A stretch of 37,241 nucleotides of DNA from Candidatus Hebobacterum abditum (GTDB lineage Bacteria > Armatimonadota > Hebobacteria > Hebobacterales > Hebobacteraceae): NCBI GenBank assembly GCA_029821875.1, contig JALGXW010000034.1:1-37241 (forward strand). Reading direction: 5' to 3'. The translations under genes and the position numbers were made by a program. How positions within the stretch are numbered: position 1 is the stretch's first letter; every line of letters starts with the position of its first letter. The notes under the pieces were generated by a model that was given only the letters and a program-made list of their open reading frames with translations, searched no databases and was not told the DNA's origin. Positions 234 through 3,498 of the stretch are shown one piece after another.

Positions 234-2354
234 TCAGGGATCGGACGCTCTTGCAGAGGAGACTACTTCGTTCCCAGCCCGCGCCTCTTGACGGCCGGCA
301 AGGAGATCTGCCTGGTGACTCAGCCGCTTGTCGGCATACATCGCTCGGTCAGCGACGGCCATCAGCTCCTGTGAGTCTTCCGCGTCGCCGGGGAATGTTG
401 CCACACCGAAGGCGGCGCTCAAGCTCACAGAGCGATCAGGCCGCATTTGGACCTTTGTCTCTCGCACGGCCGTCTTGATGCGATTGGCCGTCTCGACGGC
501 CTCCTTGTTGCTGGTGTTCGGAAGGATTATGAAGAACTCGTCCCCGGCGTACCGGACAACCGTATCGGTGTCACGCACGTGGCGTGCGCAGATCTCGGCG
601 ACGAGTCGAAGCACGCGGTCTCCCTGCTGGTGCCCGAAGTTGTCGTTGACGTACTTGAGGTGGTTCAGGTCGATGGCAATGAGCGAAACAGGTGTCTGTT
701 CTTGGCGCGCCCTGTCCAACTCCTGCTCAAGTGTCATGAAGAAACATCGGGCATTAGCCAGGCCCGTGAGCTGGTCGGTGAGAGCAGACTGGCGGGTGAG
801 TGCGTATTGCTGGGCGTTCTTGACGGCGATCGCCGCCTGCCTCGCAATGGTGCTGGCAAGCCTTGCATCATCCTCGGTGAACGGCCGGCTCGCGGGACGG
901 TAGAGAGCGATCACGCCGATGGTGCCCTGCTCTTCGACGAGTGGGGCCGCCACGACCTCGGTCAGAGAGCACTCTGTCACGGCAGGTCCAAGCAAATGCG
1001 ACAAATCCTCCATGGCCGAGCGCCCCACTCCGGACGGCACCCCGCTGAGCGCCACAGCGCCGCTCACACCTGTGCCGGAGGGCAACAGGCGTCCCTGAAT
1101 GAGGTCCGAATACGGCCCGGAGGCCGCTACCACGACAAGATCGTCGCCCTCTTCCTGGGTGAGATACAAGACACATGTCGCGAAGTCGATTATCCGCTTG
1201 GTCTTGCTGATGATCAGGTCTGCCGTCTCCTCCATGTTGAGGCTCTGCCCCATCGTCTGGACGATCTCATAGAGGGCAAATACCTCCTGGTGAGCTTGGG
1301 CCATGCCCTGGTAGACGGCTCGCTGGCCGGGTGAATCGGGGTCTCCCTCGAGAACGGCCCCTTCAGAGTTGAAGATGAACCCGAAGCGGTCTTGCGCGCG
1401 GGCGGACGAAAGGACTCGGAAACACGTGCTCAGCACCTCAGGGTCAAACTGTGTCCCGGAGCGTTCCTGCATGAAGGAGATAGCCTCTTGCGCCGTCATC
1501 GCGGGCCGGTACGGTCGGTGTGACAGGAGTGCGTCGTAGACGTCCGCGACCGCGAGGATGCGCGCTGCCAAAGGAACCTGCTCCCCGGCGAGCTTGTCGG
1601 GGTAGCCGCAACCATCATGCCATTCGTGGTGGCTCCGGATGATCGGCACAACCGGCCAGGGGAACTCGACGGACTCGAGGATGGCGGCGCCCACCAACGT
1701 GTGGGTCATCACCTTCTTCATCTCCTCGTCGGTGAGCGAGGCGGGCTTGGAGAGGATGTAGTCGGGCACCGCGAGCTTGCCAATGTCATGCAACATCGCG
1801 GCAGTCTTCAGCGCGTCGATCTCATCCTGGGTCAGGCCCATGTCCTCGGCGATCATGACGGCGATGTCCCTCACGCGCTGAGTATGTCCGTGCGTATGCT
1901 GGTCCTTCGCGTCTATCGCCATCGCGAAGGAAGCAATGACAGCAGCATTGAGGTCGGCCATCTGCTGGGCCCTGTGGTGGGCCGCGTGCAGGCGCGTCAC
2001 TTCACCCTTGTTCCGCCGTTGCACCAGCGCCACAAGCGCCAGCGCGAGCAGTGTAGCTCCACCCGCGGCCTGGGGCGCCCAATAGGGTAGGGCATCGATC
2101 TCGACGAGAGTGAGGAGGAGGGAGCCGGCAGCGAACAGGAGTCCAAGAGCGACAAGTGAGCGCGATGCCCCAAGGAGGCGGAGGTAGGCCGGACGCCGCG
2201 GCGCTCCGCTGGACTCCGCAGCCTGAGAAGGAGAGCGGGCCCCAAGCGCGGCGCCCTCGGTCGCCTCCGAGGAAGCGAGTCTGTCCTCTGCCCTCGCTTC
2301 TCGGTCAGGCTGCCGCTGCTCCCCGTTCATCTGCCGACCGCGTCTGCCCAACAT
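234..2354 (-). CDS. Membrane HD-GYP / GAF / GGDEF cyclic-di-GMP signalling protein
   Basis: A 706-residue hybrid that could both make and break cyclic-di-GMP. After a charged N-terminus there are two membrane segments (about 66-85 and 95-112). An HD-GYP phosphodiesterase domain follows (about 135-315) with HDIGK at 189-193 and HHE...GYP at 242-252, matching the family metal ligands. A GAF-like sensor domain lies at about 355-515 and a diguanylate cyclase domain at about 525-685. The cyclase signature is AGDEF (603-607); Ala at the first position is often compatible with activity. An inhibitory-site motif RDTD (594-597) stands exactly five residues before it. The ATG has GAGGTG 5 nt upstream. 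A c-di-GMP-I riboswitch lies in its leader, so its expression probably responds to its own substrate/product. Which activity dominates cannot be told from sequence. Confidence 0.95.
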   Translation of the reverse strand: MLGRRGRQMNGEQRQPDREARAEDRLASSEATEGAALGARSPSQAAESSGAPRRPAYLRLLGASRSLVALGLLFAAGSLLLTLVEIDALPYWAPQAAGGATLLALALVALVQRRNKGEVTRLHAAHHRAQQMADLNAAVIASFAMAIDAKDQHTHGHTQRVRDIAVMIAEDMGLTQDEIDALKTAAMLHDIGKLAVPDYILSKPASLTDEEMKKVMTHTLVGAAILESVEFPWPVVPIIRSHHEWHDGCGYPDKLAGEQVPLAARILAVADVYDALLSHRPYRPAMTAQEAISFMQERSGTQFDPEVLSTCFRVLSSARAQDRFGFIFNSEGAVLEGDPDSPGQRAVYQGMAQAHQEVFALYEIVQTMGQSLNMEETADLIISKTKRIIDFATCVLYLTQEEGDDLVVVAASGPYSDLIQGRLLPSGTGVSGAVALSGVPSGVGRSAMEDLSHLLGPAVTECSLTEVVAAPLVEEQGTIGVIALYRPASRPFTEDDARLASTIARQAAIAVKNAQQYALTRQSALTDQLTGLANARCFFMTLEQELDRARQEQTPVSLIAIDLNHLKYVNDNFGHQQGDRVLRLVAEICARHVRDTDTVVRYAGDEFFIILPNTSNKEAVETANRIKTAVRETKVQMRPDRSVSLSAAFGVATFPGDAEDSQELMAVADRAMYADKRLSHQADLLAGRQEARAGNEVVSSARASDP

Positions 2355-2378
2355 GCACGCACCTCAGTTATCGAACGG

Positions 2379-2405
2379 CAGGCCTCGGCTTTCTTCGGCA
2401 GCCTG
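2379..2405 (-). promoter_or_regulatory. Possible riboswitch expression platform
   Basis: Just 3' of the aptamer the transcript contains CAGGC (2405-2401), which overlaps the 3' strand of the aptamer's closing helix, and a perfectly complementary GCCTG (2383-2379). Pairing these would compete with aptamer closure. The GAGGTG ribosome-binding site follows at 2365-2360. No terminator with a U-tract is visible, so translational control is more likely than attenuation. This is inference from complementarity only. Confidence 0.3.
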
Positions 2406-2478
2406 GCAGTCGTGGCCCCGGCGGACCGTAGACCCATGGCTTTGCGTCCGCGCCTTTCGACGCGTTTGCCTTTGTCGG
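2393..2478 (-). ncRNA. Cyclic-di-GMP-I (GEMM-I) riboswitch
   Basis: Read on the minus strand, the leader of the HD-GYP/GGDEF gene carries the conserved landmarks of the GEMM-I aptamer in order. GGCAAAC is at 2470-2464. A 6-bp P2 helix (CGCGTC/GGCGCG) is closed by a GAAA tetraloop at 2458-2455. The hallmark GACGCAAAGCC is at 2448-2438. The GGGTCTA segment that opens P3 is at 2435-2429. A 3' CTGCCGAAG is at 2401-2393, whose TGCC can pair with the first GGCA to close P1. The downstream gene encodes c-di-GMP synthesis and hydrolysis domains, a target type known for this riboswitch class. The class is confident; exact ends and the on/off sense are not. Confidence 0.9.
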
Positions 2479-2577
2479 AAACCGTTCGCCCTGTTTCACC
2501 CGTATTGGTACTGGTACACAGTATTTGTTCCACAACCGGGCCGGGGGCTTGAGATCGGGCGCTGGGCGGCTTCAGCG

Positions 2578-3498
2578 CTAGTCGCGACGTCGGTCCATCA
2601 CGAACTGACTTCCCGCCAGTTCCTTCGCGTAGGTCTTCACCTCGGCGGCGATCTCGGCGAGCTCCAGGTAGCTCTCGACGCGCCGGCGGCTCGTATCCAC
2701 TCCGCCGATGGAGACCGTCATCAGCGGATACCGCTCGGGCTCTCCCCTCCGACTGGGCGCCTCAATGTAGCCGAGCTCCTTTGCCTCCTGCGAGTAGAGC
2801 TCGGGGGCCTTCGCGTCGAAGGCAGAGATGATTTGCTCGGCGATGGCCTGAGCGCGCTCCGTGCCTGTGATGACTGCGAAGTCGTCACCGCCGATGTGGA
2901 CGGCGATGTCCTCGGGGCCGCCGTGGACCCGCGTTGCTTCAATCAGCTCGCGCCCAAGCATGCGGATCGCGAGGTCACCGCGGGCGAACCCATAGACATC
3001 GTTGAAAGCCTTGAAGTTGTCGATGTCGAGGTAGAGGAAAACGAAGCGCTCGTCGGCCACCAGGCGCTGCTCGACTTTGGCACGCAGCATGGGGCTACCG
3101 GGAAGACCCGTGAGGGGGCTCACCGGAGTCCGCGCCTGCGCCGCGAGCACTGCACGCACAAGTCGCTGCACCAGCTCCTCCGGCTTGAGCTTCGACACGC
3201 GCTGCGGCAGAGCGACCTGTATCTGCCCCGTCGGCGTTGGCTCGCCATCCTCCGCCGGAGTGATGATGAATACGGACTCGGCCAGCCGGCGGCGCCTCAG
3301 ATCATCGGCCAGTTCGGTTGCCAGATCTAGGCGGCCCGCGACGGCCACTATATCGGGCCGCGCCGCGGCGAGGCGGCGCGCAAGCTCCTCGGTGGTCGTC
3401 CGCCACAGGCTTTCCCCTCGCAACTCGACGTTGAACCGACAGACTCGCGCCCGCCCGGGTTCCACGATGAGCACGGCGAAGGACTGCGTCCCCGTCAC
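2578..3498 (-). CDS. GGDEF-family protein with degenerate signature and receiver-like N-terminus
   Basis: A 306-residue protein. Residues 1-120 resemble a response-regulator receiver in length and pattern (start AVLIVEP, a later FIITP strand, then a KPEEL helix). Where the phospho-acceptor Asp is expected there is DIVAVAGRLD, so it looks like a pseudo-receiver. Residues 125-300 form a GGDEF domain (DPLTGLP-like SPLTGLPGS, then LDIDNFKAFND), with the active-site signature GGDDF at 203-207. The inhibitory-site Arg is replaced (GPED instead of RxxD). It may be a weak or feedback-insensitive cyclase, or a nucleotide-binding effector. The GTG start is chosen because GGAGG lies 9 nt upstream. It is followed by the riboswitch-controlled HD-GYP/GGDEF gene. 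Confidence 0.9.
   Translation of the reverse strand: MTGTQSFAVLIVEPGRARVCRFNVELRGESLWRTTTEELARRLAAARPDIVAVAGRLDLATELADDLRRRRLAESVFIITPAEDGEPTPTGQIQVALPQRVSKLKPEELVQRLVRAVLAAQARTPVSPLTGLPGSPMLRAKVEQRLVADERFVFLYLDIDNFKAFNDVYGFARGDLAIRMLGRELIEATRVHGGPEDIAVHIGGDDFAVITGTERAQAIAEQIISAFDAKAPELYSQEAKELGYIEAPSRRGEPERYPLMTVSIGGVDTSRRRVESYLELAEIAAEVKTYAKELAGSQFVMDRRRD

Follow-up and report, generated by a model that had tools for sequence, protein, structure and literature searches.

A c-di-GMP-I riboswitch ahead of a predicted dual c-di-GMP enzyme in Candidatus Hebobacterum abditum, with a candidate anti-aptamer partner inside the gene

In the c-di-GMP-I aptamer Vc2 of Vibrio cholerae (RF01051), the bases that contact c-di-GMP are G20, A47, and C92 (PMC4744006), and the joining stretch reads C46 A47 A48 A49 G50 (PMC7288161). 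The Cd1 c-di-GMP-I riboswitch of Clostridioides difficile is an OFF switch in which ligand promotes a terminator, and the 3',3'-cGAMP riboswitch of Geobacter pilM has been studied experimentally as an ON switch (PMC9262584). In the pilM leader, the aptamer and the OFF structure are mutually exclusive, an aptamer strand lies within the OFF hairpin, and the output is a transcriptional terminator in untranslated RNA. Genes of c-di-GMP metabolism have been called rare targets for c-di-GMP-I riboswitches (PMC6366702). Here, we describe an aptamer ahead of such a gene in a window of 37,241 nucleotides, the whole stretch of DNA analyzed, from Candidatus Hebobacterum abditum (Armatimonadota, class Ca. 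Hebobacteria; 4.3-Mb genome). The sensor belongs to a known class, and its use for feedback on c-di-GMP metabolism is uncommon and rarely reported. The features of the aptamer region and its flanking genes are as follows.

2394..2480, minus strand: c-di-GMP-I (GEMM-I) aptamer (RF01051, 84.6 bits; RF03167, 73.4 bits)
2464-2449, minus strand: P2 with GAAA loop, part of the aptamer
2396..2406, minus strand: aptamer 3' strand CCAGGCTGCCG, able to exchange partners in duplex analyses
234..2354, minus strand: HD-GYP/GAF/GGDEF gene, 706 aa from ATG 2354 or 698 aa from ATG 2330
2578..3498, minus strand: upstream neighbor, gene for a GGDEF-domain protein of the GGDDF type

A covariance-model search of the whole genome matched RF01051 to minus strand 2480-2394 over the full length of the model (positions 1-87), with E = 4.9e-17 and a score far above the gathering score of 35. 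Rfam cmscan reported a single riboswitch in the window, as a full-length match to RF03167 (c-di-GMP-I-GGC), whose parent family is RF01051, on minus strand 2479-2393 with E = 9.5e-16. All 18 of the aptamer pairs checked were standard, and the joining region GACGCAAAGCC, the GAAA-capped P2, and the P3 closure, landmarks from which an initial annotation had proposed a GEMM-I riboswitch, were each present, as was the RF01051 match that it had suggested looking for; its 3' end at 2379, by contrast, overshot the aptamer by ~15 bases. The window aptamer thus shares with Vc2 the full-length covariance match, the capped P2, the GACGCAAAGCC stretch, and all three contact bases, which align, in Vc2 numbering on the minus strand, as G20 at 2470, A47 at 2443, and C92 at 2398. 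With Cd1, it shares aptamer class and ligand but not the proposed direction of switching, which is ON for the window.

The best E-value in the Rfam scan belonged to RF03167, whose gathering cut-off the window also exceeds, and would place the aptamer in the c-di-GMP-I-GGC group, sensing a ligand other than c-di-GMP. By our own reading of the model, "GGC" names the three contact positions. The RF03167 consensus GACGCGAAGCC has G at position 47, which we take from that consensus as the diagnostic base, but the window has A; G20 and C92 are canonical too, RF01051 scores more bits, and A occupies position 47 in every aptamer of this genome. Of 93 aptamers gathered across the phylum, 91 matched A47 by regular expression, and inspection showed A in the other two. 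The label arose because clan competition in Rfam is decided on E-value and not on the diagnostic base. On that base we reject GGC-variant identity, and a different ligand on these grounds is scarcely credible. The "GGC" label may therefore mislead about ligand when the diagnostic base goes unchecked.

The window also has G, at 2470, where the 3',3'-cGAMP (GEMM-Ib) riboswitches are marked by G20A. An A at position 20 is the base change that allows 3',3'-cGAMP to bind, and two aptamers elsewhere in the set carry it, with AGCAAA instead of GGCAAA (G248:C33:21751-21840, L122; G073:C77:70954-71038, L154). The former precedes a hybrid gene broken by stops. Another aptamer (G239:C210:44258-44352, L126) has C at position 20, yet no other aptamer in the set has so strong an anti-aptamer hairpin.

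Could the aptamer be present but have lost its function in this genome? P2 carries its GAAA loop, while the P3 tetraloop receptor is CUACG...CCACGA in the window (CUACGG...CCACGA with the next base) and differs from the commonest form, CUAAG...UAUGA (CTAAG...TATGA in DNA letters); the aptamer is also missing altogether from the family members G005 and G007. However, the 18 pairs and the contact bases are intact, three family members keep the aptamer at 79-81 bits, and a CCACGA-type receptor side is common to other aptamers of the same genome and class. Loss of function is, on this evidence, very improbable.

The gene behind the leader is an HD-GYP/GAF/GGDEF gene, as initially annotated, and its domains bear this out. 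The HDIGK and HHEWHDGCGYP motifs are intact and the cyclase motif is AGDEF, so that the motifs of an HD-GYP phosphodiesterase and GGDEF cyclase hybrid are all intact or a tolerated variant; an AGDEF cyclase from V. cholerae is experimentally active (PMC3974145). An RDTD sequence (RxxD inhibitory site, or I-site) lies five residues before AGDEF. A 3',3'-cGAMP phosphodiesterase and 4mcw are among the solved structures nearest to the HD-GYP part. The hybrid is thus predicted both to make and to degrade c-di-GMP, and the earlier statement that it does so holds at the level of catalytic motifs. The GGDDF-type neighbor gene is kept in all six family members examined. Elsewhere, one aptamer is followed by an HD-GYP frame and a separate GGDEF frame (L047, G008:C135:15753-17443), and at L031 the coding sequence meets a stretch of N near position 1049473 of G002:C1, so an apparent loss of GGDEF there is probably an assembly gap.

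The pairing of sensor and enzyme recurs. Counting aptamers that precede an HD-GYP/GAF/GGDEF gene on the same strand by no more than ~1 kb, we found at least 17 loci in families f1, f2, f9, f14, f20, and f24. Most genomes with the linkage have 1-6 aptamers each, and the association lies far above chance, even though the loci are related. The gene itself occurs in 66 of 291 genomes (E <= 1e-60), in some cases without an aptamer. Within the window's own family, G001, G002, and G006 have the aptamer ahead of their orthologues. That the linkage recurs so often, and across six families of a single phylum, suggests that direct RNA-level feedback on c-di-GMP turnover is maintained. Covariance models, canonical contact bases, and linkage across the six families make a c-di-GMP-I riboswitch acting on a hybrid c-di-GMP enzyme a well-supported prediction from sequence, and aptamer, ligand class, and target gene are, taken jointly, very likely to be correctly assigned.

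How might ligand binding be coupled to expression? The answer depends on the region between the aptamer and the first codons of the gene, where these features lie.

2328..2330, minus strand: start codon ATG 2330, 63 nt downstream of the aptamer and shared by four orthologues
2352..2365, minus strand: alternative start, a Shine-Dalgarno-like GAGGTG with 5-nt spacing to ATG 2354, in frame with ATG 2330
2306..2315, minus strand: candidate anti-aptamer CGGCAGCCTG, codons 6-9 from ATG 2330, a 10-bp complement with a duplex energy of -22.9 kcal/mol

Comparison of orthologues favored ATG 2330 over ATG 2354 as the conserved start, and the same-strand spacing from it puts the aptamer in the 5' leader. 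ATG 2354 and its Shine-Dalgarno sequence are missing from the three aptamer-bearing orthologues G001, G002, and G006, and an earlier start is excluded in G002 by an in-frame TAA lying 15 nt before the conserved one. Because ATG 2354 has a good GAGGTG in the window, both starts may be used there; with ATG 2354 as the start, the pairing described next would fall 40 nt into the gene.

Codons 6-9 are an exact complement, over ten bases, of the aptamer strand CAGGCTGCCG, and several analyses bear on whether this complementarity is functional. First, its position relative to the aptamer, 79-90 nt downstream, is identical in G000, G001, G002, and G006, the four orthologues to which the arrangement is confined. 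Second, the pairing is strong in three of these, the window, G006 (-27.5 kcal/mol), and G002 (-26.2 kcal/mol), and in three of the four the first windows, at codons 6-9, give the strongest duplex among 455 windows along the gene. Third, the pairing beats synonymous recodings with P of about 0.02-0.05 each, values that are not independent because the sequences are related. The N-terminal peptide around codons 6-9 is poorly conserved; part of it (RQP) could be conserved for its own sake. Fourth, in comparison with shuffled sequences, the window pairing is modestly exceptional (1/60, z = -2.6). In the nearest relative, G001, pairing is weaker (-17.5 kcal/mol; shuffles 10/60) and the aptamer state is more stable. 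Finally, constrained folds place the aptamer and anti-aptamer states within ~2-7 kcal/mol of each other, and the unconstrained minimum-energy fold of the window differs from the anti-aptamer pairing. The leader folded without most of the coding region, and hence without the codon 6-9 partner, is no more stable than shuffles (z = 0.62).

The initial annotation had placed the switch partner in the leader itself, at a GCCTG (2383-2379) pairing with the aptamer 3' strand. These letters are present, but their pairing amounts to ~-12 kcal/mol, and orthologues have GCCTA, GCTCC, or GTCTG instead. Such weak and unconserved pairing does not support GCCTG as the switch partner. The same annotation was right that an intrinsic terminator is absent; neither this nor a sigma-70 promoter was found in the window leader. 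A genuine aptamer could nevertheless act by another route: access to GAGGTG and ATG 2354, pairing of the leader GCCTG, or Rho-dependent termination. The spacing of GAGGTG before ATG 2354, the weak GCCTG pairing, and the missing terminator would suit such a route, whereas the absence of ATG 2354 with its Shine-Dalgarno sequence from three aptamer-bearing orthologues and the drift of GCCTG among them argue against it. We regard these routes, taken together, as a serious but rather unlikely alternative.

The preferred reading is an ON switch that works through codons 6-9. At low c-di-GMP, the aptamer 3' strand CCAGGCTGCCG would pair with CGGCAGCCTG, which would break P3 and the binding pocket and form a long hairpin enclosing the ribosome-binding site and start codon, so that little enzyme would be made. 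When c-di-GMP is bound, the aptamer would retain its 3' strand, codons 6-9 would be free, and translation could proceed. The aptamer and the hairpin have one strand in common, so ligand should favor expression, as in the pilM ON switch; compared with pilM, the window partner lies within the coding sequence, no U-run follows it, and the ligand is c-di-GMP and not cGAMP. From the missing U-run, we infer control of translation. Start-region unpairing in constrained folds was nearly equal in both states, and start-site accessibility does not discriminate between them, so the way in which the OFF state would block translation is a proposal. Should HD-GYP activity prevail in the cell, the circuit would provide negative feedback, bringing a raised c-di-GMP level down again; with GGDEF activity prevailing, feedback would be positive and limited by the I-site. 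Computation supplies the aptamer, its canonical contact bases, the linkage, the enzyme motifs, and the complementarity; that the switch is ON, that it acts on translation, and which net sign the enzyme has are inferences on our part.

That the leader senses c-di-GMP and controls the hybrid enzyme as an ON switch via codons 6-9 is the best explanation and somewhat favored by the evidence; for the ON switch through codons 6-9 considered by itself, our confidence ranges from nearly balanced to mildly favorable. If it is correct, one coding stretch would be constrained both as RNA partner and as peptide, and a dual c-di-GMP enzyme would be made only when c-di-GMP is high. An in-gene anti-aptamer partner would plausibly be new if confirmed.

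Leaders of sister families offer a comparison. The same complement occurs in f20 and f9, where it completes a long terminator-like hairpin beginning in the aptamer strand, mostly with a U-rich tail, which is poor in G248 and G241. A terminator on the same aptamer strand would exclude the aptamer, implying an ON switch at the level of transcription. Anti-aptamer pairing was stronger in hybrid-linked leaders (mean z = -3.6) than in the others (mean z = -0.5; Mann-Whitney P = 4e-7); over all 92 leaders jointly the enrichment was weak (mean z about -1), being concentrated in the hybrid-linked ones. Changes on both sides of a pair were seen at only 3 of the 18 pairs of the terminator set, and covariation of the anti-aptamer helix carries no information, the aptamer strand being nearly invariant. 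The wider proposal, in which the expression platform now lies inside the gene, codons 6-9 serve as both anti-aptamer and peptide in a translational ON switch for a dual enzyme, and sister families use a terminator, is tentative, falling slightly on the doubtful side of balanced.

The genome holds six c-di-GMP-I aptamers. By our reading of the translations, the other five precede genes for surface/SLH-like proteins, a response regulator, and minor (pilin-like) pilins, with one unassigned stretch, and the targets fit a c-di-GMP regulon, as expected. A literature search restricted to open-licence papers found none on c-di-GMP riboswitches in Armatimonadota. Ahead of the other five aptamers (L007, L008, L010, L011, and L012), by ~15-30 nt, is a GTTCTTTGAAAAC-like sequence that the window copy does not have; L058 is grouped with these loci. 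This sequence resembles rRNA boxA antitermination elements, and our literature search found no description of a boxA-like element combined with a c-di-GMP aptamer. The window copy has a different upstream block.

2520..2534, minus strand: conserved block TGTGGAACAAATACT, occurring once in the genome, ~40 nt ahead of the aptamer

A TGTGGAACAANTAC-like block occurs at the same place in G001, G002, and G006 (L027, L031, and L028), and thus in all four aptamer-bearing orthologues, and is missing from G005 and G007; the 2534-2520 block is possibly a promoter element. Elsewhere in the phylum, c-di-GMP-I aptamers also occur as close pairs on one strand (G023:C116:12661-12861, L034; G233:C32:102320-102841, L140; G232:C297, L149), and the G023 pair sits directly after a hybrid gene and before the next gene.
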